Below, in pieces: positions 3,365 through 52,160 of a DNA stretch of 64,000 nucleotides. The notes under the pieces were generated by a model that worked only from the letters and a program-made list of their open reading frames with translations, did no database searches and was not told the origin of the DNA. The translations under genes and the position numbers were made by a program. The DNA is taken from positions 43,757,391 through 43,821,390 of the forward strand of contig CM060193.1 in assembly GCA_030549335.1 (NCBI GenBank), read 5' to 3'. Numbering within the stretch: the first letter of the stretch is position 1; each line of letters begins with the position of its first letter. The stretch is from Pontederia crassipes (lineage: Eukaryota > Streptophyta > Magnoliopsida > Commelinales > Pontederiaceae).

Positions 3365-3757
3365 CTCCCCCTCAAGCTGGTGAATAGGTAGTGTCCATTC
3401 CCAGCTTGGATAAAATAACCTGAAAATCGGTGTTAAACTCTTGGTAAGGGCATCAGCAAGTTGACTATGCATTGGCACGTAAGGTGTGCATATCAGTCCG
3501 CTATCCAATTTCTCTTTGATAAAGTGCCTATCAATTTCAATGTGCTTCGTCCAATCATGTTGTACTGGATTGTGAGCAATACTGATTGTAGACTTATTGT
3601 CACAATGGAGTCTCATGGGTCCTTCCCACTTAATTTTCAAATCTTGAAGAATGATCTTCAACCAAAGTAATTCACACATACCTTGAGTCATGGCTCTAAA
3701 TTTAGCCTCTGCACTTGAATGAGCTACCACATTTTGTTTTTTACTTCTCCATGTCAC
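3320..3757 (-). pseudogene. Copia RNase H domain
   Basis: The frame begins with TWRSKKQNVVAHSSAEAKFR, the strongly conserved copia RNase H signature (usually WkSkKQ..va.SSaEAEy). It continues with LWLK..L.DL, LHCDNKSTISIAHNPVQHD and a KHIEIDRHFI block, ending near QLADALTKSL. In an intact element these would digest the RNA of the RNA/DNA hybrid. The frame is offset from the RT frame upstream (3754-4482), so the polyprotein is interrupted between them. The domain itself looks fairly complete. Confidence 0.85.
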
Positions 3758-4482
3758 AAGGTTTCCACCAAGAAATGTGCAATATCCTGAAGTTGACCTT
3801 CTATCAACAATTGATCCAGCAAAATCAGCATTAAGTTTCCATTTCTTCTAAATAGAACGCCTTTTCCTAGTGTTCCCTTAAGATAGTGTAACACTCTATA
3901 AGCTGCTTGCAAATGAACTTCCTTCATATTATGCATACATTGACTAATCACACTCAATGCATATGGAATATCTGGCCTTGTATGAGATAAGTAAATAAGT
4001 TTTCCCACAAGGCGTTGATACATTTCTCTATCTACTCCAACATCTTCATCTATTGTCCCAAGTTTAAGATTAGGTTCCATGGGGTTACTTACTAGTTTGC
4101 ATGCTGGTTTACCAGTTTCTTTGAGATCTGTGATATACTTTTGTTGAGAGATAAAAATTTCCTTCTTAGAGTGAGCAACTTCCATTTCGAAAAAACATTT
4201 CAACCTCCCCAATGCCTTAATCTCAAACTCTTTAGCCAAGTATTGACTCAAGGCTTCCTTCATATCATTTCCTGTAATAATTATGTCATCAGCATACACC
4301 AAGAGGACTGTAACATTTACCGAAGAAGAGTGCTTAATAAATAACGTGTGATCCCCTTGACTTTGTTTGTATTCCATGGCTAGCAACTTTGCCTTGTATC
4401 TCTCATTTGATCTATCGGCTCTATATTTACCAACTTGCAGCCTACTGTCTTTTCTCCTTTGGGTAGCTTCATTAACTCCCAT
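3754..4482 (-). pseudogene. Copia reverse transcriptase, C-terminal part with YADD
   Basis: The catalytic LLVYADDIIITG is present (coding near 4290), as are the thumb/connection features SQYLAKEFEIKALG, FISQQKYI.DL and LVGKLIYLSHTRPDI. Just before the YADD block the frame runs from a fingers-type segment (RYKAKLLAMEYKQSQ) straight into GDHTLFIKH. The usual palm section with the first catalytic Asp is missing. Copia elements normally have similar G-Y-x-Q words on both sides of this gap, so deletion by recombination between them is plausible. The protein would not be a functional polymerase. Confidence 0.85.
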
Positions 4483-4967
4483 GTCTTGTTATTTTCTAAT
4501 GCCTCCATTTTTGCATTCATAGCTTGTTTCCATTTTTCATTGGATAAAGCCTCAGATAAAGTAGTAGGTAGGGTTATAGCATTTAGGCAAGTTCTTTTAT
4601 TGCTGATTGGAAAATAGACACGCATGTGTTTAGCAAGTTCACACACCTCACAATGAAAGCTTTCGACATCTAAATCCTTAAATAAAGAAGGAAATAGAAC
4701 TTTAATAACCCTAAAGGATGGATGTCCAAGTCGACAATGAAGTAAAACTTTGTCTTTATTGGATAGAATGAGCTCAAAGTTGAAGGAAGAAGACAATTTG
4801 CCCTTAATCATGTTCAACTGACTTGGTGTTTCAAGATAGTACAGGCCATTCCTTTCTCTAGCATGTCCAATCATCCTCCTAGAACTCTTGTCCTGAAATA
4901 TACAATAATTATTATAAAAAATGACATTGCAGCATATATCTTGGGTAAGTTTTTGTACAGACACCAA
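4380..4967 (-). pseudogene. Copia GAG-pre-integrase domain joined to start of reverse transcriptase
   Basis: The N-terminal half has the pre-integrase pattern LLHCRLGHPS followed by a zinc-finger-like C..C pair (CEVCELAKH). Directly after ISNKRT the sequence becomes the segment that usually opens the RT domain (LSEALSNEKWKQAMNAKMEAL). The whole integrase catalytic core that should separate them is absent, with the frame kept open across the junction. This is an in-frame deletion fusion. Confidence 0.8.
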
Positions 4968-5040
4968 ATTTGTGGATAATTTTGGAACATGAAGAACATT
5001 TCTTTTCTTAGGATTATTGATGGGCTAATTTTGACATCTT

Positions 5041-6576: not shown

Positions 6577-6852
6577 GAGAATCAAAAGGTTTTGGACCAC
6601 GAGATAAGGAGACTTGGTGGTGGAATGAGGAGGTCCAAGAAAAGGTGCGTAATAAGAAGAATTATTTCAAGGCGATACACTTGGACAATAGTTCTGACAA
6701 TTGGGAAAAGTATCGTTTGGCGAAAAGGGAGGCTAAGAAGACAGTTAGTGATGCTCGTGCTAAAGCATATGAAGGGTTTTATAAGGAGTTAGGGATAGAC
6801 TGGTGAACAAAGGATTTACAAGATTGCAAGGAATAAAGAGGAGTCGAGAGAT

Positions 6853-8361
6853 TTGGATCAAGTAAGATGCATAAAAAATGAAGTTGGCAAGGTTTTAGTT
6901 ACAGAAGGAGATATTAAGAACAGATGGGAAGAATATTTCTATAAGCTATTTAATGATGGATGTGAAGGTTCCCGTTGTGATTTGGAGGACTTGACAGTTA
7001 CTGAATGTGAGCTTAATATGTCATTTTATCGTAGAATTAGAGTTTCGGAGGTTAGCGAAGCTCTTAAGAAAATGGAGAATGGTAAAGCCGTTGGACCGGA
7101 TGGTATACCGATTGAAGTTTGGAAATATTTAAGAGAAAAATGTGTGTTGTGGTTATGTAAACTATTTAATGAAATTTTACGGTCGAAAAAGATGCCTGAT
7201 GATTGGAGATTAAGTACATTAGTTTTTATTTACAAAAATAAAGGGGATATTCAGAATTGTGCAAATTATAGAGGGATTAAACTTATGAGTCACACAATGA
7301 AATTATGGGAAAAAGTGATTGAGCATAGATTGAGAATGAAGACTAGTATTTCTGAGAGACAATTTGGGTTCATGCCAGGAAGATCCAGTACAGAGGCGAT
7401 TTATTTACTAAGGGGGACGATGGAGAAGTATCGAAGTAGGAGAAGTGACTTACATATGGTTTTCATTAACTTAGAGAAGGCGTATGATCGGGTACTAAGG
7501 GATGTACTTTGGAAAGCTTTGCAAAAGAAGAGGGTGAGTGTTGCCTACATTAAGGTAATACTATATATGTACGATGGGTCATTGACTAGGGTTAGGACAC
7601 CCGGAGGTGAGACAAATGAATTTCCTATAGGAATTGGCCTACATCAAGGATCAGCTTTAAGTCCGTATCTATTTAACTTAGTTATCGATGCTATAACCGA
7701 GAGTATCATAGAGGAGGTACCTAAGTGTATGCTATTTGCGGATGATATAGTACTTTTAGCGGATTCAAGAGAAGAGATTAATATAAAATTGGAAATATGG
7801 AGAAATACGTTGGAGTCAAAAGATTTTCGTTTAAGTAGGAATAAAACAAAATACATGCATAGCAATTTCACAAATAAACAACTTAGAGACGATTTGAAAG
7901 TTAGGTTAGGGGAGGATATAATTCCTCAAGTGACAAAGTTTAAATATTTAGAATCAATTGTAAGACAAGATGGGGAGATTGATGACGATGTTAATCATAG
8001 AATTCAAGTTGGTTGGTGTAAGTGGAGGAAAGCCACTGGAGTTCTTTGTGATAGAAAAGTACCCAATAAAATTAAAGGAAAATTCTATCGTACTGCTATA
8101 AGACCGACAGTGTTATATGGTAGTGAATGTTAGGCTATGAAGGGACAACATGAACGTAAAGTGGGGATAGCCGAAATGAGAATGTTGAGATGGATGTGTG
8201 GTCATACAAGATTAGATAAGATTAGGAATGATCATATACGTGAACGAGTCGGAGTGGCTCCTATTAGTGAGAAAATGGTAGAGAATCGTTTGAGATGGTT
8301 TGGTCATGTTCAGAGAAGACCATTAGATGCGCCAGTAAGAAGAGTAGATCAAATAATCTGA
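6853..8361 (+). pseudogene. LINE reverse transcriptase, RTE clade
   Basis: A 426-codon open frame (6853-8133) has the non-LTR RT blocks in order: GPDGIPIEVWK, YKNKGDIQNCANYRGIKL, RQFGFMPGRSSTEAI, the first catalytic Asp region MVFINLEKAYDRV (consensus D replaced by N in the F.D.. position), HQGSALSPYLFNLV, and the catalytic CMLFADDIVLLAD. A TAG at 8131 interrupts the frame. The next frame (8137-8361) holds the RTE C-terminal signature MRMLRWMCGHTRLDKIRND and ENRLRWFGHVQRRP. It is inactive because of the N replacement, the stop and the upstream shifts. Confidence 0.88.
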
Positions 8362-26999: not shown

Positions 27000-28639
27000 C
27001 TAATGTGAGTAATGTCCATTGTCCACCCGTCCAAAACGTCCATCACCCACTTCCCTCCCTGCCTCCTGCTACTGCGGCTGCTGCCCCCTGCCTACCCCTG
27101 TTGCAACTTGCCTGTGCCTTCGTAGTCCGTCCACCACCATTCACCAGTTCGAACATCCTTGGATCTTCCACATAGCCGGATCTTGCACAACGTCACGGGT
27201 CGCCGAATCTTTCTATGGTATTTCTTTTTCCTTTATTATTTTTAGTCTCTTCTAATATTTCTACTTTTCTATACTGATTTATGAATCGATTCCTCCACCG
27301 TTCCCCTTTTTCTCTCCTCAATGTGAACTGTGAAGCCTCCCGATTGATCTTCCTCCTAGAACCAAGACACATCGCCTCGCCACGACGCCACCTCCCTTCC
27401 ATCACCACAACATCGTCGGATCTCCCATAACAACGTTGGATCTTTTACGGTACTTTTTTCCTTTACTATTTTTCATCTCTCCTACCGTTTCCTACTTTCC
27501 TTTACTATTTTTTGATCTTCTACAAATCTTCTATTATTTTTCACCACAATATGTTAAAACTTCAACATTTTCTCTATGGTTTCCCCTTTTCTCTCCCTTA
27601 TGTGAAGCATCTCGGTTGATCTTCCCCTTAGGACCTCACACGACTCCATTGGCTCTCAAGGGAAGATAACAGGCTGTTGTAGTGTTGTTGCTCATTCAGG
27701 AAGGGGAGTCCAAGTTTCAGAGGAAAGTGGACAGCGAAAGAAAATTTCCTATTGCATAAAAGTAGGAGGATCTGTTGGATCAAACATTAGATTACATGAT
27801 CTACTTAAGGGTGGCATGTAAAACATTTAATTAATCAAATTAGCCTCAATATCTTTCTATTCACAGAAGGATGGATTACTTTTATTGCGGCTTTCTGCTG
27901 GTACAATGATTATGTGGTTGTTTTGTTATTATCTTCATCAATATCATGCTGCCCATGTTCTGTAAATCCTAATTAAAGTGCTAGTGATCATGTACTTGAT
28001 GTTAATGACTCGTACTAGGAGTTAAGAAGCCTTATAGAAACATATTGGATGCTGCCATGCTCATAGATTTTCTGATCATGCACTGAATTGGTTGTTCTGA
28101 TGTATATGTATTGATCTTGAATGTTAATGCTTCTAAATAAGAATGGACAAGCTAATGGGATGCATCTTTTAAGAGGTTTATTTAAATATTAGGTGTTGTC
28201 TACACTCTTTTTTGTATAGTTCATGCTACTTAATCTTAAATATAATATCTTGTTGGTCATTGATGGAAATCATGTGTTGTTTTCCTAGTTTCCTTATTTA
28301 TGATTGGAATGGTCCTCATATGTTACTGTGACATGCCTGAAATGAATATAATTATTTTACTATTGTACATGGACTAACACTTCTGATTTCTGAACAATGT
28401 GTTCATATCAAAATTAAACTAGTTGATGTCCATATCAAAACTAAAATGGTTAAGGGCATGTTTGGCTAAAAAGAATTTTAGCTCTTCAATTATGAAATTC
28501 TATGTTATGTTCATTTTTAAAAAGTATCATTCCATAGTATAGAAATATGTAGGAAATGATTCTAAAGGTGTTTGTAAAATTCTATGGTATGTTAATTTTT
28601 ACTTTATCCAACTATTGTATTTTTGTTTCTTATTCAGAA
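27000..28639 (+). other. 5' leader/intron region of the hAT element
   Basis: Includes a pyrimidine-rich block (27019-27670) with short frames of low complexity, then AT-rich sequence ending in the acceptor TTATTCAG just before the transposase ATG. I read it as untranslated leader plus intron. Confidence 0.45.
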
Positions 28640-30766
28640 ATGGGAGGTGATGATCAATCTGTTAGTACTCCTATAGGAACTAGTACTCCTATAGGAAGCA
28701 ATCAAGAAGAGGATATAAAAAATCAAATTGCTCAATCTCAAGTAAATGAGAATAATGGACAAAGTTCAGAGGCAGGAAATGAGAAGGAGCAAGGAAGTCC
28801 AAATGGGCCTAACTTCAGGAGCATGGACACACTTTCACAGAATAAAAATAGAAGAAAGTTTCGTGCTATATGCAAATATTGTAAAAGAAAGTTGGGTGGT
28901 GAGACAAAACATGGAACAAAGCACTTACATGATCATATTAGGGTGTGTAAACTTCGTACAATAAGAGGTCCAAAGCAATCAACATTGAAAACACTTGCCG
29001 AATCACATTCTGTAGAAGATTATGGTAATACATTTATTGTTAGAAACTACTCATTTAATCACGATGTCGCAAGGAAAAAATTTGCAAATATGATTGCATT
29101 ACATGAGTATCCCCTTTCAACTGTTGATCACATTGGCTTTAAGAGATTCTGTGGCGCATTGCAACCCATGTTTAAAGTAGTTTCACGTAATACAATAAAG
29201 AGTGACATCATGTGTTTATACAATGCTGAAAAGATCGACATCAAATCTTTTTGAAAAGAATTCAAGTCGTATTGCCATTAGTACTAACATGTGGAAGTCA
29301 AGCAATCAGAACAAATGTTACATGTCTCTTACAGCTCATTTTATCGATGATACTTGGACTTTACAATATCGACTTGTGAGGTAATCACTTAACCACTTAA
29401 GTGTGACATTATTTTATATTATTTTAAAATTCATAATGTAGTATGCTTTGTTCTTTTCCTAATTAGGTTTCTTTATGTGCATGCGCCGCATTCTGCAAGT
29501 AATCTTTCTCGTGTTTTGGTTGAGTGCCTATAGGATTGGAACTTAGACCAAAAGTTATCAACTTTAACAGTTGACAATTGTAGTACTAATGACGCCATGA
29601 TTCCATATATTTTTGACAAAATTCCATCTACTTCTTTCATTTTGGGAGGACGCTTGTTTCATATGCGATGTTGTGCTCACATATTAAATTTGATTGTCAA
29701 AGATGGGTTGTAGACAATTAATGATTCTTTGCTGAAAATTAGAGTGAGTGTTAGTTACTGGGTTGCAACACCGAAAAGAGAGGAAAAGTTTAAGGATACA
29801 TGCAGACAGCTGAACATTACATATACAAAGAAGCTTTTTCAAGATTGTAGGACCAGATGGAATTCTACCTTTTTTATGTTGACATCTGCATTGCCATATC
29901 AAGATGTCTTTTATCGCCTAAAGCAACGAGATTCTGAATTTACTTCTTGTCCTAGTGCTGAGAATTGGAAAATGGTTTTTGAAATATGCAAAAAATTGGA
30001 GGCATTTTATAATATAACCGAGTTATTCTCTGGCTCCAATTATCCAACTGCAAATGTTTATTTTCTTAAAGTTTGTGAAATCAAATTATTTTTAAATGGG
30101 TGGCTTTCTTCTTCTAGCCAAGTCATAAAAGTAATGGCTTTAAGTATAATTTCAAAATTTGATAAGTATTGGAATGTGATCAATGGAGTGATGGCAATAG
30201 GAGCTGTTTTAGATCCTAGATATAAGATGAAGCTATTGAATTATTTCTTTCCACAAATTTATGGAAGTGAAAGCAACAATGAACTGTTGAAGGTGAAAAA
30301 ATTGTGTGAAGATCTGCTCCTTGAGTACCAAGCTAATGATAAAAGGAATACTTCTTCTAGCAATGATTTTGCATCTTCATCTGCCATGAAAATAGGTTCT
30401 TCACCAAAGAAACAAAAGTGGGAATGTGCTTACTTTCAATTTGTAGAAGAAACTTCTTCGGAAAATAATTTCAAGTCAGAATTAGAAAGTTATTTAGAGG
30501 AGCCAGTTATCATTCACAAATCAAGTGATGGAACATTTGACATTTTGGATTACCAAAAACAAATTGGAGTGAAGTATCCCACTTTACAAAGAATTACAAA
30601 AGATTTTTTAGCAATTCCTATTTCGACAGTTGCATCGGAATCTGCATTTAGTACTGGAGGTTGTGTTTTGAGTCAACATAGTAGTGCACTAAAAGAAGAC
30701 ACACTTGAGGCATTGATGTGTTATCAAGATTGGTTTAAAAATACATTAAAAAGTAATATAACTTAG
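28640..30766 (+). pseudogene. hAT transposase (BED zinc finger, hATC dimerisation domain), broken
   Basis: The ATG at 28640 directly follows an acceptor (ATTCAG). The N-terminal part holds a BED-type finger (RAICKYCKRKLGGETKHGTKHLHDHI). The frame shifts near 29245. The next piece has AISTNMWKSSNQNKCYMSL, where the first catalytic Asp of the hAT triad (usually TTDxW) is Asn. An intron of about 80 bp begins after RLVR (GTAATC) and ends CTAATTAG. After it come LTVDNCSTNDAM with the second Asp, then CCAHILNLIVKDGL. In-frame TAG stops lie at 29531-29533 and 29711-29713. The C-terminal half is open (29729-30766): RTRWNSTFFML, AVLDPRYKM, then the hATC block LQRITKDFLAIPISTVASES. The element cannot make active transposase but its ends could still be mobilised. 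Confidence 0.9.
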
Positions 30767-42503: not shown

Positions 42504-42513
42504 TAAAGGTGTA

Positions 42514-42700
42514 GGCTGCGTTTGGATAGCCCGAACAATCCAGAACATTTGATTGTTCTGCCAAACACAATCAAATGTTCTGGTGGGGCCCACCGGAGCA
42601 TTTGTTCCAGTCAACGCAGTATGTTCGCAAATGTTCTCAGAAAAAAAGTTCTCGCATTGCGCGAGAACTTTGCAAATGTTCCGATGGAAGCCGAACCACC
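42514..42700 (+). promoter_or_regulatory. Left end of the Harbinger element with subterminal GTTC/GAAC words
   Basis: After the terminal repeat the sequence contains many GAACA, TGTTC and GTTCT words in both orientations, including AAAGTTCTCGC/GCGAGAACTTTG, which forms a hairpin around 42647-42673. Similar words fill the right end (49280-49438). These are candidate binding sites for the element's proteins. Confidence 0.6.
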
Positions 42701-43649
42701 TCGAATCCCATGCCGCATTTTGCCCCAAATCTATTGTACTATCGTCTCGTCGAAGAAATGTCTATTGCTTCATTGCTATCCGAAATCGCTCGCTCGCCCC
42801 TCTCTCCGACGACGTTCGTCAGACGCACGACGGCGGACGACGGCAAGAACGCCGAAGATAAGCCACAGGTGAGATCTCTTTCCTTTTCCGATAGTTTTTC
42901 CACACCTGCTAAGATTGCTCTCGTTCCATGAAGTTTTCCTTCATCGTCTTCGTCGTCCGATAATGTAATGCCGGATTTGGTGGTTTAGGGTCGATCTGTT
43001 TCCGCGGTTCGACGTTCGTCGATGATCGTTGGATTATATTACCACATTGGGTCCTTTTTGTGTCCGACGAAAGTAGAAGCATCCTAGGGTTTCATTATGT
43101 CATTCTGTCAAACATTGATCCCTATCTTTTTTTCGTCGACTATAGCTGCCGGAATATTGTACACACAACCTCTCTCTCTTTGATCGGTCGTCCCCCCCTC
43201 TCTCCCCAAGGAAAACTCTAGCCGTGAAAGAAAACGTCGAGGACCTTAGCTTTGCCTATGATAACCGCCTTTTGATGGTCGGCCGCTCTCTGCCAACTCT
43301 ACTCAGTCAGGCAGCCCCACCGGAGTCTTCACAGCCCAAGCCCCCAACTCTTCTTCTCGATCAACGGCCACCGTCTTCAGATCTGCGATTTCAGACCTGC
43401 GATTTCAGATCTGGTGACATACTTGCAAATTCTGATTTCCAACTGCAATTCATGTCCACGGTCATGTCATGATGCCGGCAGGTTGCCGTTAATTTATCTT
43501 TAAGTATGATGAAGTTTGTGCAAATTTGTGCTGAAATGTTAGTCGGCAGGTTTCTAACTGCAAATAATGTCCACGGTCATGTCATGTTTGGCGGCAGGTT
43601 GCCGTTAATTAGTCTTGTTTGGTTTTGTTTGTGCAAATTGGTGAGATTT

Positions 43650-43895
43650 TATAATGCTAATTATGATTCTATCTATATCTTTGTTGTTTATATATTTGAT
43701 TTCAATTTCTGTTTTCATCATTGCAATCTATTTGCTTTGTTATAATGTTATCATGTTAATTATGATTCTATCTATATCTTTGTTGTTTATATATTTGATT
43801 TCTATTTCTGTTTATATCTTTGCTTTCTATTTGCTTTGTTATAATGTTATAATGTTAATTATGATTCCGTTTATATCTTTGCTAAATCTATTTGC
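43650..43895 (+). repeat. ~98-bp tandem repeat inside the Harbinger element
   Basis: Two full and one partial copy of a unit running TTAATTATGATTC.., TATATCTTTG, ATTTGCTTTGTTATAATGTTA. The 98-codon frame over it is repeat-derived. Confidence 0.85.
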
Positions 43896-44869
43896 TTTAG
43901 ATACATTTAAGCCTGCAGCTGTGTGGATGCTTAGCCAGATGATTCTGTGATTTATGCATTTCTGTATAAATCGTATTCATGTTAGGTGCAAGGATTAGAG
44001 AAATTGTGGATTCCTTCTGGAGTCCTTAATGTTTGTTATGATTGGTTTAGTTTGTTACAGCTGGTTGGTTATTATGATATTTGTTATGATTGAATTAGTT
44101 TCTCACATGCTGGTTGGTTAAAAGGATTTTTTCCCTTCTTTTTTTCCCACAACACTTGGCCTCTCAGTGTGGACTCACCTTCATGAAACCTTTGGCAAGT
44201 GATTGACAATTTTGGACAATTACCTTGCAAGGGGCCATCTACTTTTAACCATTATTCGTCTGACCTTTTGTACTCACCTTGCAAGGGGCCGTCCTGAAAA
44301 TGTTTAACTTCTGATTTCTTGATAACAGTTTGCCGTCGAGGCGTACCTCGTGTTGCATTACATTTTTCTTCGATAAGGCACTTGGGTTAATTTCTTACAA
44401 TTGAATGTCCCCGTAGCTTGCGAGAGAAGGGCCGATCCCGCATTCTCCACCGTGACGACGTTGGAGCTTTCAAGGAGCATTGAGGTACATTATCGGTGTT
44501 TTAATTTATTTCATTTTCATGCTGAATACTGAACATAGCATAGCAATAGCAATATTATATACATTCTCGGTGTTTTAGTACTATCGTCACAGTAATATCA
44601 ATATTATGTTAATTCTTGCACCGCATGTTGCTATATACGTTGATCCCTAATTTCTTGAATCGCATTATCATGTTCTGATTGAATCAGTTTATAATGACTT
44701 TGCCATATCAGTTCAATAGGACTAATTAACAAAGTGCTATATCGTGCGACAATACTAGAACATTTATGTATGATATCTTATAGACAGCCATGTGTTCGAA
44801 TATTACATTTATGTATGATATGCGAACACTTTCCAAAATTTATTCATTTTGGTGTTCTATATACAACCA

Positions 44870-45832
44870 TGAGTTCCAATAAAGGAAAAAAAAGATCAAC
44901 TCTTCAGAGAAGGCACGATCCAGCCATTGGTCGCTAAATATGGATGCCTTCTTCGTTGGGATGATGATGCAAGAGAACGTGGATGGTTATTTCCGGGGTA
45001 ACACATTTGCGCCAGAAGAGTGGAAAAGGATGTGCAACAGGTTCAACGGGCACTTTGGTGAGTGAATGGCTATCGAGCATATGAAGAATCATCTCAAAGT
45101 GATGAAAAGAAATTTCGAGTTGTGTCGGACTCTTGCAAACAAGAGCGGATGGGGATGGGATCCGGAGAAGTGTATGCCACAGCCACCGAAAGAGGGAATG
45201 TGGGAGGAAGTGATAGTGGTGAGCAGTCGTGCTTTTCTAAATCTCTTTCCACCCAACACTAAGACCATCGGTTTGTACTGACGTTTCCATCTTCACTGTA
45301 CCAGGTTAACAAAGATTACATGAGGGTGAAGAACAAAATGTTTCCTCATTACGACGACTTCGTCTTCTTGTTTGCCAAGAACATTGCCACGGGCAAAGAG
45401 GCATGTACGACCACCAAACTCATTGACTTAGAGGAGGAAGAAGATAGCTCCGACGCTAACATTATTGACATGACCACACCCACCGCTTATGGAGTAGAAA
45501 AACAAAACAACGATGATCCTACCGAATGCAGATTACCAAGTTCTTATGGAACAACTTCTTCGGGCAAGAGAACCAGGTCCATTTCCATTCCAATCACGTC
45601 GAAGAAGAAGAAAAGTGTTAAGGGTGTGGATTTGGTTGTACAGGAGATAGCTTTGAAGAAATTGAAGCTCATTGAAGATTTGCTGGCCGTACAACAGAAT
45701 AAGAATCCTTTCTCATTGGCCGATCAGTGTTGGGCGAAGCTGGAAGAGAGGCTGCCCAACCTTCCCTTGAATGTGAAGTTGGCGGTCGCTGATGCATTCA
45801 AAGATGAGAAAGAGTTGTTGACGTTCATGTGA
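44870..45832 (+). pseudogene. Harbinger ORF1: Myb/SANT-like DNA-binding protein, broken
   Basis: A basic leader (ATG at 44870, MSSNKGKKRSTLQRRHDP) stops at 44937. The domain continues in another frame from 44940: MDAFFVGMMMQENVDGYFRG, EEWKRMCNRFNGHFGE. An in-frame TGA (45063-45065) is followed by MKNHLKVMKRNFELCRTL, GWGWDPEKCM, MWEEVIV. An intron 45219-45304 (GTGAGC...TACCAG) leads to NKDYMRVKNKMFPHYDD. This is the Myb/SANT-like (MSL) fold found in PIF/Harbinger ORF1 proteins, which partner the transposase in binding element ends and entering the nucleus. The second half has an acidic run, a basic patch SKKKKS and a Leu-rich C-terminal helix region (LKLIEDLLAVQ). One frameshift and one stop disable it. 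Confidence 0.82.
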
Positions 45833-45862
45833 TGCGACGATCAAATGCTTTAGACATGGATA

Positions 45863-46225
45863 ATGAGAAAGGTGTCAGAGTACTATCGTCTCCCCCCTCC
45901 GGCACCGTCGCAAATGCCGTTCACAACCTTCTCAACTGAGGATCCACAACAACCGCGTGCAGCACGTGGGGTACCACCGGTCACTACTACGGTCACATTT
46001 ACAGCATCACCAGCGTACCCCCCTTCTGATTTCCGTCCGTCCTTTGGAGCCGGTAGTATGCCGAATCCCTTTGCTACGTTCCAAAGCTCGCCGAATCCGT
46101 TTTGTAGTCCGAGCAAAGTAATGCGGCCTACAGAAGGGAGTTTCGCATTACCTTCTCGACGTTTCATTCCACCTAGGGCGAGTGGCGAGGGGGTTGAGGA
46201 GGAAGATTTGAGCGGGGAAGAGTAG
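45863..46225 (+). CDS. Pro-rich ORF of unknown function within the Harbinger element
   Basis: 120 codons in the same frame as the end of ORF1 but after two stops (45833 and 45851). The translation is rich in Pro, Ser, Phe (PPPAPSQMPFTTF, NPFATFQSSPNPF) and ends in an acidic tail (EGVEEEDLSGEE). I recognise no domain. It may be a former C-terminal extension of ORF1 cut off by stops, or an untranslated spacer that happens to be open. The opposite strand is also open (45883-46167), which weakens the case. Confidence 0.35.
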   Translation: MRKVSEYYRLPPPAPSQMPFTTFSTEDPQQPRAARGVPPVTTTVTFTASPAYPPSDFRPSFGAGSMPNPFATFQSSPNPFCSPSKVMRPTEGSFALPSRRFIPPRASGEGVEEEDLSGEE

Positions 46226-46471
46226 ATCTGTTATTAGTAGTATGCTCGAGTTATCTTTAGATCCATGTACTTTTTTCTTAGCATGTTGCTTTATGTAAGA
46301 TATTTCGTCGAATATTGTAATCTATTTAGTAGCAGTATGGCGCCTGTGCTTTGAAACACTCACCAGACTTTGTATTTCTTAATTTATGACTTAGACGTTT
46401 AATTATGTTGTGATGAATTTACTTTTATGACTACTCATTTTTTATTGCGCGTTATATCAGCTTGTGTTAAA

Positions 46472-47796
46472 TGGCAGATGAATACTGAACAATTGTTGTC
46501 CTCCTTCGTTGAGGGCTTGATTTTCGACGAACTTCATGAAGACGTCGTGGATGATTCATCAGAAGGTCACGTCGATGAGGCAAATGGGACACCGACCTCC
46601 GTGTGCATCCTGAAGCTACCCTGTCGGACATGCCCGTTCACTGGAGATCAAGCCGTTAATGAAATATTGAATGGCCATCCGAAAAGGGGTATCATCATTT
46701 CGGGGTTGAAAACACAACTTTTATGATGTTGGAGGAGCTACTTGTTTCTCGTGGACTTCTTGCATCGACAAAGTATGTCAGTGCACGGGAACAACTGGCC
46801 ATCGTTTTATTTGCGATTCACAGAGATGAAACAAATAGGGACATACAAGAGGAGTTTCAGCACTCTGGTGAAACAATTTCACGGCACTTCAGGAATGTCT
46901 TGAAAGCTATTTGTTCATTAAGCGACGAGTTCATAGTAATGCCGGGTGAAGATGTAGGTGTTCACCCTCGAGTGCGGGACAATCGCAGATTCTATCCGTA
47001 CTTTGCGGTAAGTGATATTGCGTGCACTTGTAAACCAAAATTATAGTTGAATATTTTCATTAACCTTCATTGAATTCTCAATACAGAATGCGTTAGGTGC
47101 TGTCGACGGAACTCACATCCCAGCTCATGTACCAAAATTGAAATCAGTGCCGTATCAAAATCGTAAAGGTTTTCTCTCACAAAACGTCATGGCAGCCGCG
47201 TCTTTTGACCACACCTTCTTATTCGTTTGTGCTGGTTGGGAAGGTTCAGCAGGCGATATGAAGGTCTTGAGGTGGTGCTTCGAAAGGAAGGAATTTCGCG
47301 TACCCGACGGTAGGCATTTGTAACCCTTATTTTCGAAACGTTGCTTGTAGGAAAGTACTTTCTTGTGGACTCAGGTTATGCGAATTTCGACAAGTTCATA
47401 GCACCCTATCGAGGAGGCAGGTATCATATGGGGAATTGTCATGCGAAGGACATTTTTAATCACTGGCATGCTCAGTTGCGGAATTGTGTGGAAAAGTCAT
47501 TCAGAATTCTGAAAAAAAGGTTTCGGATACTTCGTAGCCCCATGCAATTTCCGTTGAAGATTCAAAAGTACATTGTCATAGCATGTTGCATAATACACAA
47601 CATCATAAGACGTCATCAAGGAGGCGACAAGTACTTCAATATGACGATCGAGCCCGAACCTGAAGTGGTCCGTGCGGGTGACTTGACACCTTCTGTGCCC
47701 GCCTCATCAACCGAAAGAACAAGAGGCGACATTCTTCGGGATGGTATAGCAGCTAGGATATGGGCTGATCATCGAAGGCGTAGACGTAAGACTTAA
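46472..47796 (+). pseudogene. Harbinger transposase (HARBI1-like, DDE_Tnp_4), frameshifted
   Basis: The N-terminal frame from 46472 contains LPCRTCPFTGDQAVNEILNG then HPKR and loses frame near 46690. The body continues in another frame as FGVENTTFMMLEELLVSRGL, HSGETISRHFRNVLKAI and RRFYPYFA. Intron 47008-47096 (GTAAGT...TACAG) precedes NALGAVDGTHIPAHV with the first catalytic Asp. FVCAGWEGSAGDMKVL has the second. Intron 47310-47350 follows GTACCCGACG, then GKYFLVDSGYANFDKF, APYRGGRYHM and NCVEKSFRILKKRFRIL with the catalytic Glu. The stop is at 47794. All three acidic residues remain. The single visible defect is the small indel near 46690, after the start region. Confidence 0.9.
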
Positions 47797-48116
47797 CTTA
47801 TAATTAAAATAGTTATCGCGACTCGTCTACTACTAAATGAAACTTTTACATATATATACTATATGTGACCTATCCTAACATATCTTGCTTATCTCACATA
47901 TTTTATTTACCATGAGGTGCTTGTCACTTTTCTTAATATTTTATTTAGCATGAGGTGCTTGTCACTTTTCTTAATTTTGTTTAGTTGCATGAACCGCCTT
48001 TTTGGTTTCCTGTCGAATATTTGTTGCCGTCAGGTTATCCTTTTTAGTTTGCCGACAATAATTCAATTTGTTCACTCACGCTATTCATGCAGGACACCTT
48101 ACCACAGAGGATTAGG

Positions 48117-48515
48117 ATGGCTACCCGTAGATTTTATGTTGTATATGAAGGTTGCAAACCAGGTATATATAACACCTGGTCTGAATGTCAAGCACAAGTG
48201 TCAGGTTATCCTTATTGTGTGTACAAGAGGTTTGACTCCTTTGATGCAACCGCAGCTTCCCTTTTAAAGTATTGTGAAATGCAGGACGACAATTACACGA
48301 AGCTACCAAACAATTATGAACTACCTATTAAACATCGACATGTTATTTTGCCATCTCAAACTCCATCCTCTTCAGTTTCTAATGTTGAACAGCCACTCCA
48401 AAATTTTCAGTGTGGATGCAATTGTCGAAGGAACCTCGTACTACTTATCTTTGTGTGTGCATTGTTGTTCTATGTTGTAGCTAAGATTGCTTGTAATTGT
48501 GGTAGCAAGGTGTGA
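48117..48515 (+). CDS. Extra Harbinger ORF: RNase H1 N-terminal (viroplasmin-like) domain plus membrane segment
   Basis: A 132-residue open frame 321 bp downstream of the transposase, same strand. Residues 4-50 (RRFYVVYEGCKPGIYNTWSE, CQAQVSGYPYCVYKRFDSF) match the RNase H1 N-terminal/Cauli_VI fold, which in RNase H1 binds RNA/DNA hybrid or duplex RNA. A polar Ser/Thr/Pro linker follows. The C-terminus has FQCGCNCRRN, a hydrophobic run LVLLIFVCALLFYVVAKIA and a final CNCGSKV, i.e. a likely tail anchor bracketed by Cys pairs. There is no RNase H catalytic domain. I chose the start at 48117 because MATRR leads straight into the domain and the upstream CATGCAG/GACACC looks like an acceptor. The frame has no lesions, unlike its neighbours. 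Its function in the element is unknown; targeting to a membrane and binding of nucleic acid are inferences. Confidence 0.7.
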   Translation: MATRRFYVVYEGCKPGIYNTWSECQAQVSGYPYCVYKRFDSFDATAASLLKYCEMQDDNYTKLPNNYELPIKHRHVILPSQTPSSSVSNVEQPLQNFQCGCNCRRNLVLLIFVCALLFYVVAKIACNCGSKV

Positions 48516-48960
48516 GTTAGACCATGCACTGATGTCATTTTGAACATGGACGTGTTGCTGTGCTGTGTGGATGCTAAGATTGCTGTGCAAACTGATGTCA
48601 TTTTGACCATGAATTTGTTGCTGCGATGTGTGCACTACGTTTGTATTCAAATATATTTTCGTACTCTCATTGTGATGTAATCTAAGATGTGCTATGATAT
48701 GCTGTTATAACTTGGTTGTGCTTGTTGTTGAATTTAAGTGTTGTTGCGTTTCGTTGGGAAATGGATGATTGTGTTTGTTCATGACATGCTCCTCATATTT
48801 TATTGTAGAATTATTGTGTATGTTTAATTATGTCAGTGTGGATGGACTTGTCGAAAGAACATTAATCTCTCTCTTTTGTGTGTGCAATCCCATATATTTC
48901 TCAGCCAAGATTACATCCAATTGTGGCAGCAAGAATTCGCGTAGACCATGCGATGTATAC
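48407..48960 (+). repeat. Degenerate duplication of the tail-anchor coding segment
   Basis: The segment 48407-48535 (from CAGTGTGGATG through TTTGTGTGTGC and TAATTGTGG.AGCAAG to TAGACCATGC) recurs at about 48834-48955 with substitutions and small gaps. The second copy would read QCG.TCR... and SNCGSK but is frame-disturbed. Between the copies there is also a shorter repeat (ACTGATGTCATTTTGA) at 48529 and 48591. Confidence 0.75.
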
Positions 48961-49279
48961 TACTGAATTAAGTCCTGCTATGTGCTGTGATAAATGCACT
49001 GATTCTTTTTTCAAATTTTTTTTCGTAAGCTATATACTGTCGTAAACTGATACGTGTTGTGATCTCTATCATGTTGTTACTAATCTTCTCCGAGCTCACT
49101 TACCCCAAATGGTATGTTCTAATTTCAGAATTGGTTACCAGATGAATTCGTTCAAGTTAGGTGTTAAATACTATCTAGTTTTTTCGCAAAAATTTCATTC
49201 GTTAGTCATGTGTTCGATACAGTTTGATACGGCAGAGAAGGTCGTTTCCATTTTGGTGCCAGGCGAGCGAACTTCTCCA

Positions 49280-49438
49280 AACGGGCAAGAGAACAAAATG
49301 GAACTTTGCCGTCACGTCTTACCCAGAAGTTCGCACGAGATGAAGAATTTGTCCAAACGTAATACTAGAACTTCTGAGTCAAATCAAAGAAGTTCAAAGA
49401 ACTAATGTTCTCAAGTTCTATAGGAGCCAAACACAGCC
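49280..49438 (+). promoter_or_regulatory. Right end of the Harbinger element
   Basis: AGAAC, GTTCT, GAACTT and AAGTTC words cluster between 49265 and 49420, then GGAGCCAAACACAGCC ends the element. It mirrors the left end in motif type but not in exact sequence. Confidence 0.6.
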
Positions 49439-50385
49439 GTAAGGTTTTTCTTGCTCTCTCTCCCCACACGGCGGATGCCTTCCTCGCGCGGCGTCCCGCT
49501 GCCCCTTGCGCGACAACCTTGAGCATAAGATCTCGTCCTTCGCCGACCGCCGACCGTCGACCGTCGACCATATCTACGCGTGAGAGGGCCCGACCCAATT
49601 GTCGGCGAGCATATCCCCACGGTCCTGACCTCGAGCACCCCACCTCGAGCTCGCCGAATGCTGCCGACCTCCTATCACCCCCGTCGTGGTGCTACGACCT
49701 CCGCAACGACCTCCCGCGACCCCACACCACCACTGAGCGCCGCCGCATGCCGCACGCCGAGCGCCGCCGCATGCCGCACCTCGACCCCTCCACACGCCAC
49801 CGCCCCATCGTTGTCGAGCTCTCCCGCTCTACCGCCGAGCCCGCCCGCCCCGCTGCTGATACATGGAGATCTCCCGCTCTGCCGATACATGGGGGGGTTA
49901 TAAAGGTGTAGGGTTTTTCTTGCTCTCTCTCCCCAAGCGGCGGATGCCTCTCCCCTGCTCTCTCTCTCTCCGCGTGGCGGACGGCTGCGGAGACAATTGT
50001 TCTCTCCTCGCGCGGTGCTACATCCCGCTGCCCCTTGCGCGACAACCTCGAGCATCGGATCTCGTCCTTCGCCGACCGCTGACCATATCTACGCATGAGA
50101 GGGCCCGATCCAATTGTCGGCGAGCATATCCCCATGGTCCTGACCTCGAGCACCCCGCCTCGAGCTTGCCGAATGCTGCCGACCTCCTATCACCCCCGCC
50201 GTGGTGCTACGACCTCCGCAACGACCTCCCACGACCCCACACCACCGCTGAGCGCCGCCGCATGCCGCACGCCGAGCGCCGCCGCATGCCGCAACTCGAC
50301 CCCGCCGCACACCACCGTCCCATTGTCGTCGAGCTCTCCCGCTCTGCCACCGAGCCCGCCCGCCCCATTGCCGATACATGGAGGC
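49439..50385. repeat. GC-rich ~0.47-kb tandem duplication flanking the Harbinger element
   Basis: Unit 1 starts at about 49441 (AGGTTTTTCTTGCTCTCTCTC) and unit 2 at about 49911 (GGGTTTTTCTTGC). Both contain GAGAGGGCCCGA, CAATTGTCGGCGAGCATATC, GCCGACCTCCTATCACCCCC and GAGCGCCGCCGCATGCCGCA, and end GATACATGG. Unit 1 lacks about 60 bp near its start. The many overlapping open frames on both strands are composition artefacts shared by the two units; none is called as a gene. Confidence 0.85.
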
Positions 50386-51549
50386 AATCTAGGATCGCGA
50401 TTGTTCCATTCTATAGATTTAATTTTGTTGATTTAGTGACATTGTATCGTAGGACTGATGTATGTATTATGATCCGAATTATATTGGTTTAGTGACATGG
50501 AGCTTGTGAAGCCTATTACTATTTGATCAAGAATGCATTAACATGGATTCTTTCGTGTTACTATACGATCCGAATTCGATTCTAATGAGATTGTATCATT
50601 GTATCATAGGATTGCATCATAGCTATATTTCGTGTTTGTATTCGAATTCAATTCTAATGAGTATGGTAGGATGGCAGTCGAGATTGTATCCGAATTCCCA
50701 AGATTGTTTCCTGTTAATGCAAATCGATGATGGCTTCAAAGCTATATTTCCTTCTTAAAATCTTCTGATGAATTTTTCATTATTAAATAAGTTATCATTA
50801 TTTTTTATTTTTCTCATAATTGTCTTTAATACTTAATTTTTTTACTCATTTTCCTTTTAATATATTTATAGATATAGAATATAAATGAATTTAGAATATA
50901 AAATAGATGAAATTTAATAAAATTACATTATGTTAACTTTCTATCCGAGATATAACTAACTAGTTTTAACCATAAGTATAAATTTTGGATTACATCTTGG
51001 ATTCACAAAAAAATCATATTTGTAAAAAGGACATTTACAATTTTTTATCATTATAATATTATTCATAAAAATATTTTTTTCCTGAAAAGTACATTTAAAA
51101 ATTGTGAATGATTAGTATTCTAAGTTCTAACAATTCACTTATTCTTTTTCTAATCATATTTCCTTTTTTTCTCACACTTCTTGTATTCTATATAAATCAA
51201 ACATCCATTACTTGTATCATTATTTTTTTATTATATGTTTTAAAGACTATGCACTAATTTAAAAATTATGAAAATAAGAACATAAAGATATATGTGTCTT
51301 AGGATAATATTAAGATATATAATATTGTTAGTATATTATTGATTAACATTAGTACTATATATACACTAACAATATAAAATTAAGCTATATAATTTTAAGA
51401 TATATGTGTCTTTTATAATATGTCTTTTTATATTTTTAAAGTTAATCATTATTTAGAAATTTTACTGCACAATAATTAAGAATGCATTAATATATAATTA
51501 TTTATTATTATAAATAAAAAATAATGAAATATAATACAACAATGTGATT
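50386..51549. other. AT-rich intergenic stretch
   Basis: No gene. A weak repeat of GATCCGAATT.GATTCTAATGAG words lies near 50560-50660. Confidence 0.5.
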
Positions 51550-52160
51550 AATAATTTAATATTATTATTACCAACGGATCTCGCCTTCATAGACCTGTCG
51601 ATAACTATTATATTATATTATATATAAAACATATGATTAATATTTTAATATTATTATTACTGACGGGTCTGATCTTTGGTATTAGTGCCATATCACTCAA
51701 AGGATAGAACCATTGGTAACTATTATTACCGACAGTTTGGCCTTCGATATTACTTACGGATCCCCGTCCGTCAGTACTACCAAAGGGTATACGGATCGAT
51801 AACTATTATTACATTATTATATAATATAATATAAAACATATGAATGATATTTTAATATTATTATTACCCACTCTGGCTTTCGATATTATCGACGAATCTT
51901 CATATGTCGGTACTACCAAAGGATAGATCTATCAGTAATTATTATAATATTGTATATATAATATAATATAAAACATACACTTAATATTTTAATATTATTA
52001 TCGATGGGTCCGGCCTTTGGTAAATGATAAATCCATCAATAATTATTAATATAATATAATATAAACATATTATTAATGTTTTAATATTATTATTACCGAT
52101 GGATCCAGCCTTCGGTAATATCGACGGACGAAGATTCATTGGTACTATGGAAGAGTAGAC
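51550..52160. repeat. Degenerate array of TTTTAATATTATTATTACCGACGG modules
   Basis: The module ATATTTTAATATTATTATTA followed by a variable CGA(C/T)GG(A/G)TC..GCCTT(C/T)G block recurs near 51553, 51638, 51843, 51980 and 52075, interspersed with TACCAAAGGATAGA.C words and ATATAATATAATATAAA.CAT blocks. The spacing is irregular. Confidence 0.7.

Follow-up and report, generated by a model that had tools for sequence, protein, structure and literature searches.

The transposons of the PIF/Harbinger superfamily and their kin are described, in the available parts of three reports, as having two open reading frames (ORFs), one for a transposase and one for a Myb/SANT-like protein (PMC4482050, PMC4565680, PMC2528002). 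The plant members PIF, Ping/Pong and Pifvine have a DDE_Tnp_4-type transposase, a Myb/SANT-like partner, short terminal inverted repeats (TIRs) and target-site duplications (TSDs) of 3 bp, and a length of 5-7.2 kb is given for the grapevine PIF families in the available text of PMC2528002. The YqaJ ORF of ISL2EU, which according to the accessible part of PMC4482050 takes the position of the Myb protein, is an accessory transposon gene like the one presented here, but its protein is unrelated and replaces a partner that is retained here. The same domain is present in capE of the Helitron helpo1.3 of Pleurotus ostreatus, a PF01693 (viroplasmin) gene on a DNA transposon; it belongs, however, to another transposon class and another kingdom, and is presented in the accessible text as a captured gene with a nuclease-like neighbour rather than as a regular component of the lineage (PMC4289320).

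The window analysed in this study is a stretch of 64,000 nucleotides of the Pontederia crassipes genome (assembly GCA_030549335.1, contig CM060193.1, positions 43,757,391 to 43,821,390). It contains an element that resembles the plant PIF/Harbinger transposons in its transposase type, Myb/SANT-like partner, short TIRs and 3-bp TSDs, and the grapevine families in its length. It differs from them by a third protein-coding gene, here named ORF3, where two ORFs are described in the accessible text of the papers cited above, and by TSDs that are A/T-centred and mostly not TTA or TAA. We consider it very probable that a large PIF/Harbinger-type lineage of this genome has in ORF3 a real third gene that is under selection. 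A preliminary description, made from the sequence alone, had reported an uninterrupted 132-residue frame on the transposase strand inside the element and had regarded it as a non-standard module; the frame was found open and enclosed as described, and the two-ORF accounts agree with the second point. Among the matches listed from the open-licence literature, Repbase being outside this search, no paper linked Harbinger elements with an RNase H1 N-terminal/viroplasmin ORF, and ORF3 is provisionally considered a so far undescribed Harbinger component. The coordinates of all features are presented in Table 1.

Table 1. Features of the element and of its insertion site (positions in the window)
Feature	Position	Strand	Basis
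PIF/Harbinger-type element (broad sense), 6925 bp	42514..49438	+	termini, GTA duplication, match limits of copies
Target-site duplication GTA, left	42511..42513	.	GTA on both sides of the element
Target-site duplication GTA, right	49439..49441	.	GTA on both sides of the element
5' terminal inverted repeat, GGCTGCGTTTGG	42514..42525	+	
3' terminal inverted repeat, reads CCAAACACAGCC on the + strand	49427..49438	-	
Empty site: element-free host paralogue of the insertion site	about 49893..49950	+	
Gene for the first Harbinger protein (Myb/SANT-like), in two pieces, 45066-45278 and 45320-45829	45066..45829	+	Myb_DNA-bind_3
DDE transposase gene, pieces about 46478-46720, 46723-47010, 47087-47308 and 47428-47796	46478..47796	+	DDE_Tnp_4
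Predicted 3' splice acceptor, ..TTCATGCAG/GACACC, 24 nt 5' of the ORF3 ATG	48091..48092	+	
ORF3 (third gene), 132 aa	48117..48515	+	open frame, homologues, codon models
RNase H1 N-terminal (putative hybrid/duplex-binding) domain, aa 6-43	48132..48245	+	PF01693
CGCNC motif, aa 99-103	48411..48425	+	
C-terminal hydrophobic helix, tail-anchor-like, aa 107-125	48435..48491	+	hydropathy, predicted model
CNCG motif, aa 126-129	48492..48503	+	

The boundaries of the element were compared with those of its 20 nearest copies, which were picked via ORF3 similarity. The match started at 42512-42514 in 14 of these copies and ended at 49436-49450 in 14, and every copy had at least one window-like Harbinger terminus. 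A perfect 3-bp TSD was present in 14 of the 15 elements with both ends located, the window counted, and the exception was L023. The middle base was A or T in all 14 perfect duplications, of which just 3 were TTA or TAA. GTA, ATA, TAG, CAA, TAT, ATT, AAA and TTG were among the duplications found in the window and 13 copies, a wider range of targets than the TWA given for the strict PIF/Harbinger group in the available part of PMC4482050. Since the duplications are mostly not TWA (that of the window is GTA), the element is classed in the broad PIF/Harbinger superfamily (PHIS) only, with a Harbinger-type DDE transposase, a Myb/SANT-like second protein, and TIRs with a short A+T-centred TSD; "Harbinger" is used throughout in this broad sense.

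Two repeats were observed in and beside the element. At 49439-50400 the host DNA into which the element inserted forms a tandem duplication (300 bp with 93% identity, at 49555 and 50070); the element lies at the edge of one repeat unit, and the other unit is the empty site. Within the element, towards its 5' end, there is a tandem repeat of about 99 bp, at 43646-43881 in the window and at about 2497-3231 in L010. Its copy number differs among the element copies, with more matching stretches in L010.

The Myb and transposase genes both lie upstream of ORF3 on the same strand. The score of Myb_DNA-bind_3 on the first Myb piece was 23.0 bits, slightly below the cut-off of 23.6, and the homologous piece of L033 was matched with 66 bits (6.4e-18). 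DDE_Tnp_4 was matched at 47087-47308 (1.6e-6) and at 47428-47793 (9.3e-10). Plant_tran was also hit in the profile searches, in line with a plant genome. The first two transposase pieces are in different frames in the window copy, and small introns seem to lie downstream of them. Neither gene has a continuous reading frame in the window copy, although its ORF3 is intact; with its transposase and Myb genes decayed, the window copy is probably not autonomous. More than 200 of the 303 transposase residues were retained in 17 of the 20 nearest copies, and more than 190 of the 241 Myb residues in 17 of 20.

Elsewhere in the window, long frames were observed at 3754-5024 (-), 6799-8133 (+) and 28553-30766 (+), which by eye resemble, in that order, the remnant of a Copia-type polyprotein, the reverse transcriptase of a LINE and the transposase of a hAT element. 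An AT-rich irregular repeat array at 51500-52120, with families of 47 and 79-83 bp and recurring CCGACGGATCC-like words, perhaps represents the subterminal repeats of another transposon.

ORF3 consists of 132 codons without a stop, and the opposite strand is stop-rich. The RNase H1 N-terminal/viroplasmin-like domain that had been recognised by eye was confirmed by profile search, PF01693 (Cauli_VI) being matched by residues 6-43 with an E-value of 4.1e-15 and 56.2 bits (cut-off 21); PDB entry 1qhk was matched at 2.7e-10. Unlike RNase H1, ORF3 continues after the domain with a linker and ends in a hydrophobic helix, and PF01693 was the only Pfam match of the 132 residues at E-values up to 1, with no RNase H catalytic domain found, so that ORF3 does not qualify as an RNase H1 enzyme. 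PF01693 was also detected in all 16 aligned ORF3 proteins (E up to 0.01), the most distant of which have 35% identity to that of the window. In this alignment 16 columns were invariant (M1, Y7, V9, Y10, E11, G12, K14, Y18, C24, V28, G30, Y31, C34, F39, D43 and Y52), all of them within the first 52 residues. Near-invariant positions include W21, Y36, K37, C99 and C101, and the length of the linker is variable. Six far relatives, with 35-41% amino acid identity to the ORF3 of the window, were all fully open. Weak matches to CX9C and CoV_S2, each in one of the 16 aligned proteins, were taken as chance. A scan of IMG/VR for viral relatives with the 16-protein alignment returned 33 pattern matches, none of which was confirmed.

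The hydrophobic C-terminal segment had been described as bracketed by CGCNC and CNCG. This was seen in the window, and the segment itself was a general property of the family, but the exact cysteine flanks were present in close copies only. Residues 107-125 are the best 19-residue hydrophobic stretch of ORF3 (mean Kyte-Doolittle value 2.79) and end 7 residues short of the C terminus. The tail was scored in 24 of 27 loci (L012, L017 and L021 were left out, and in L021 the frame is broken within the tail). It was the best hydrophobic stretch in all 24 proteins and lay 6-13 residues from the C end; the best 19-mer had a mean of 2.31-3.28 in the tails and of at most 0.74 elsewhere in the same proteins (n=24). 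All 24 thus have the feature that characterises tail-anchored proteins, a lone hydrophobic segment in roughly the last 30 residues, and we infer from this pattern that ORF3 would be inserted in a membrane by its tail.

A YAG/G acceptor-like site 24 nt 5' of the ATG was found in 16 of 21 close copies, the window counted; it was altered in 4, and L027 was not assessable. All six far relatives also had such a site, at 24, 3 or 28 nt 5' of the ATG. As the site recurs in both the close copies and the far relatives, ORF3 is probably spliced.

An AlphaFold2 model of ORF3 was built from 16 relatives. The modelled domain was superimposed on 3bsu, the human RNase H1 hybrid-binding domain solved with RNA/DNA, with an rmsd of 1.2, a TM-score of 0.86 by target length and an E-value of 9.9e-4. 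The confidence of the model was moderate overall (mean pLDDT 65.3, pTM 0.41), being fairly good in the domain and in the helix at the C end (residues 104-131) but not in residues 60-102. The nucleic-acid contacts of human RNase H1, Tyr29, Trp43, Phe58, Lys59 and Lys60, correspond to Tyr7, Trp21, Tyr36, Lys37 and Arg38 of ORF3, and the equivalent of the RNA-side Arg52 of the human protein is an invariant Gly. In view of the predicted fold and the retained Tyr, Trp and Lys contact positions, the ORF3 domain may be expected to bind duplex nucleic acid, either dsRNA or an RNA:DNA hybrid.

The occurrence of ORF3 was examined in the window's own genome, a single genome of 1.13 Gb. ORF3 matches from three queries and PF01693 were merged, as were transposase matches from two queries. 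Each search list held the best-scored 150 of 377 to 951 candidates (150 of 394 in one of the ORF3 searches), so that the absence of a match is weak evidence. The matches listed comprised at least 262 ORF3 loci and at least 209 transposase loci. A same-strand transposase lay upstream of 122 of the 262 listed ORF3 loci and a convergent transposase downstream of 34, and neither of the two remaining orientations occurred at any of them; 106 were without a transposase among the matches listed. Conversely, ORF3 was within 6 kb of 156 of the 209 listed transposase loci, compared with 0.7 (maximum 4) on random placement in 200 trials with the 245 ORF3 loci of an earlier union. In that union the distance between the two genes was 130-2233 bp in the same-strand order (113 loci) and 1024-5315 bp in the convergent order (34 loci). 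In a smaller earlier comparison of two best-150 lists, a transposase adjoined 69 of 150 ORF3 matches. No stop was present in 97 of the 150 ORF3 matches of one best-150 list, some of which were partial (hand count). For 53 of the 209 listed transposase loci no ORF3 was found nearby among the matches listed, which indicates that ORF3 may not be essential.

The convergent order, ORF3(+) - transposase(-) - Myb(-), was read directly in two loci. The convergent-order Harbinger-type elements observed are L029 with L035 and L030 with L036, and their transposases are about 60% identical to that of the window (59% and 61% over the pieces compared). Two of the six far relatives of ORF3 lie in convergent-order Harbinger-type elements, and three have Myb and transposase genes upstream. 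As both the convergent and the co-oriented arrangement recur, ORF3 has been kept in two gene orders. The preliminary description had named two occurrence patterns that would count against it, homologues that are ordinary host genes only and a lack of other Harbinger copies with the ORF. Neither was observed: 156 of the 262 listed ORF3 loci were within 6 kb of a transposase, and at least one Harbinger terminus was present in each of the 20 nearest copies, with two far relatives in elements of the other gene order.

Possible duplicated segments were also noticed. Two large contigs each have, close to an end, an element remnant of identical score (G000:C7:74940-76006 and G000:C8:78172246-78173417), which suggests a duplicated subtelomeric segment, and C2:43157539 and C24:4389479 resemble a second duplicated pair.

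Selection on ORF3 was estimated by two methods. By pairwise counting in 21 copies, dN/dS was 0.46 for ORF3 as a whole, 0.25 for the domain, 0.77 for the linker and 0.59 for the tail, and it was 0.48 in the 11 open copies. The corresponding controls were 0.92 and 0.91 for off-frame readings, 1.04, 0.60 and 0.95 for readings of the 3' flank, and 0.17-0.33 for transposase pieces. Codon maximum likelihood on the tree gave an omega of 0.52 for ORF3 (2dlnL against 1 of 27.0) and of 0.37 for the domain (25.1); the values for the linker (0.67, 2dlnL 3.7) and the tail (0.62, 2dlnL 3.0) were not significant at 0.05. The off-frame controls were 1.31 (2dlnL 3.9) and 1.05, the 3' flank gave 0.90-0.96, and the comparison genes 0.34-0.57 (transposase) and 0.42 (Myb). 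The decay of many of the copies would be expected to bias all these values towards 1. Purifying selection therefore acts on the whole ORF3 frame and on the domain, and the dN/dS near 1 that would have told against the earlier proposal was not obtained. A chance frame of 132 codons was ruled out by the homologues in the same genome, by the use of two of the four possible arrangements and by an omega significantly below 1.

The identities to the window differed between the genes of the same element. L016, L020, L026 and L027 are 69-76% identical to the window in the transposase, 57-61% in Myb and 70-82% in ORF3. For L034 the values are 87% for the transposase, 83% for Myb and 56% for ORF3, the last over 57 aligning residues, and for L033 they are 78% for the transposase and 42% for ORF3. 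Between distant lineages ORF3 diverges far more than the transposase, although exchange is mixed into this difference. Trees of the transposase and of ORF3 were built from 22 of 27 loci each (L012, L017, L021, L023 and L032 were omitted as short or gappy, L012 by choice). In the transposase tree L033 grouped with L016, L020, L026 and L027 (96/89), and L031 and L034 grouped with the window group (99/96). A single clade of the holders of window-type ORF3 was rejected by the transposase tree (AU p 0.00153), and both transposase groupings were rejected by the ORF3 tree (AU p 2.07e-6 and 1.52e-5); the tested groups were named after the identities were known, which the p-values take no account of, and the likelihood differences were 59-79 units. 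The ORF3 tree had weak resolution among close copies, with an unsettled bootstrap and a long-branch warning. Since the trees conflict, ORF3 has been exchanged between lineages and moves partly independently of its transposase. A step in similarity was present between the transposase stop and the stretch just 5' of ORF3. The conflicting loci (L016, L020, L026, L027, L031, L033 and L034) are accordingly read as cases of 3'-end module exchange between lineages.

As a leading guess, ORF3 might act against host RNA silencing, a role that we regard as possible rather than probable and that is suggested by analogy with the caulimovirus P6 protein (viroplasmin). P6 suppresses silencing through DRB4, as stated in the available text of PMC5670102, and duplex RNA binding by its 40-residue motif, the feature in which ORF3 is like it, is known from a reference title in that paper. 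The same source, as far as available, maps silencing suppression to residues 80-110 of P6, with other regions possible (PMC5670102), so suppression may reside outside the domain shared with ORF3. Whereas P6 is large, multifunctional and found in inclusion bodies, ORF3 is a small protein that ends in a hydrophobic tail; as the two have no more than the domain in common, the parallel is a functional analogy. In the proposed mechanism, the N-terminal RNase H1-type domain would bind dsRNA or an RNA:DNA hybrid, and the single C-terminal helix would insert the protein in a membrane from the cytosolic or nucleoplasmic side as a tail anchor. At the membrane ORF3 would capture double-stranded or small RNAs of the element, this capture would blunt host silencing of the element, and blunted silencing would favour the exchange and retention of fit ORF3 versions. 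Taken as a whole, the statement that ORF3 is a selected third gene encoding a tail-anchored, duplex-binding accessory protein, with silencing as the leading guess for its role, falls somewhat short of being probable. Counting against it are the non-significant constraint on the linker and on the tail taken singly, the stronger divergence of ORF3 than of the transposase between distant lineages, the 53 of 209 listed transposase loci with no ORF3 nearby among the matches listed, the 3'-flank reading of 0.60 in the pairwise counts and the moderate confidence of the model.

ORF3 might instead aid transposition, anchored by its tail at the ER or nuclear envelope while the domain holds RNA:DNA hybrids or duplex ends, so that the element or its mRNA is positioned for the transposase/Myb complex. 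The occurrence of only two ORF3-transposase arrangements among the matches listed is concordant with such a role, as are the similarity in fold to a hybrid-binding domain whose structure includes RNA/DNA and a constraint on ORF3 similar to that on parts of the transposase. However, two element proteins are described as needed for mobilisation in the superfamily in the available part of PMC2836001, ORF3 is exchanged independently of the transposase, and 53 of the 209 listed transposase loci have no ORF3 among the matches listed; we consider this role unlikely, though worth keeping in view. The exchange itself would fit a semi-independent selfish module that rides on Harbinger-type elements, passes from one of their lineages to another when 3' ends are exchanged, and brings along a splice signal and perhaps also a promoter. 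Besides the conflict between the transposase and ORF3 trees, the jump in similarity between the transposase stop and the region 5' of ORF3 and the acceptor-like site in all six far relatives, in both gene orders, argue for this explanation, but no ORF3-only mobile form was seen among the loci examined. It appears improbable, though it too is worth keeping in view.

The remaining explanations deny ORF3 a role in the element. A host-gene fragment acquired by transduplication and passively carried would have precedents, as one plant PIF family is reported to contain foreign sequence in its long 5' region (PMC2528002, available text) and the capture of a PF01693 gene by a Helitron of a fungus is described in the accessible part of PMC4289320, and host RNase H1 has the same domain. 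An omega of 0.52 against off-frame values of 1.05 and 1.31, fully open frames at 35-41% identity, and one architecture in two gene orders speak against it, and this explanation is largely rejected as very improbable. The 106 of 262 ORF3 loci without a transposase among the matches listed could also be read as members of a host gene family, in or beside which Harbingers had inserted by chance. For the lineage of the window this reading is rejected as almost certainly wrong, as termini enclose ORF3 in 15 elements, 14 of them with a perfect duplication, and the listed loci with a transposase fall into two arrangements (156) with none in the other two. The preferred reading remains that of a selected third gene of the element.

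Accessory genes on other mobile elements offer a comparison. VANC of the VANDAL elements is an anti-silencing accessory protein that is unrelated to ORF3. Bdelloid LTR elements reportedly carry additional ORFs, which are accessory genes like ORF3 with unrelated proteins. That plant PIF/Harbinger-type transposons in general hold a widespread, overlooked third gene, an exchangeable module with a caulimovirus-type domain encoding a tail-anchored, anti-silencing binder of duplex RNA, is a tentative and rather doubtful generalisation.

If ORF3 is what it appears to be, a transposon superfamily known for two proteins has a selected third protein in at least one genome, where it lies beside 156 of the 209 transposase loci listed. 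Accessory proteins of DNA transposons would then include an unexpected class, a membrane-tailed duplex binder, which would be a candidate for an anti-silencing factor. Some of the plant proteins that are annotated only as "RNase H1 N-terminal domain-containing" may accordingly be transposon genes.
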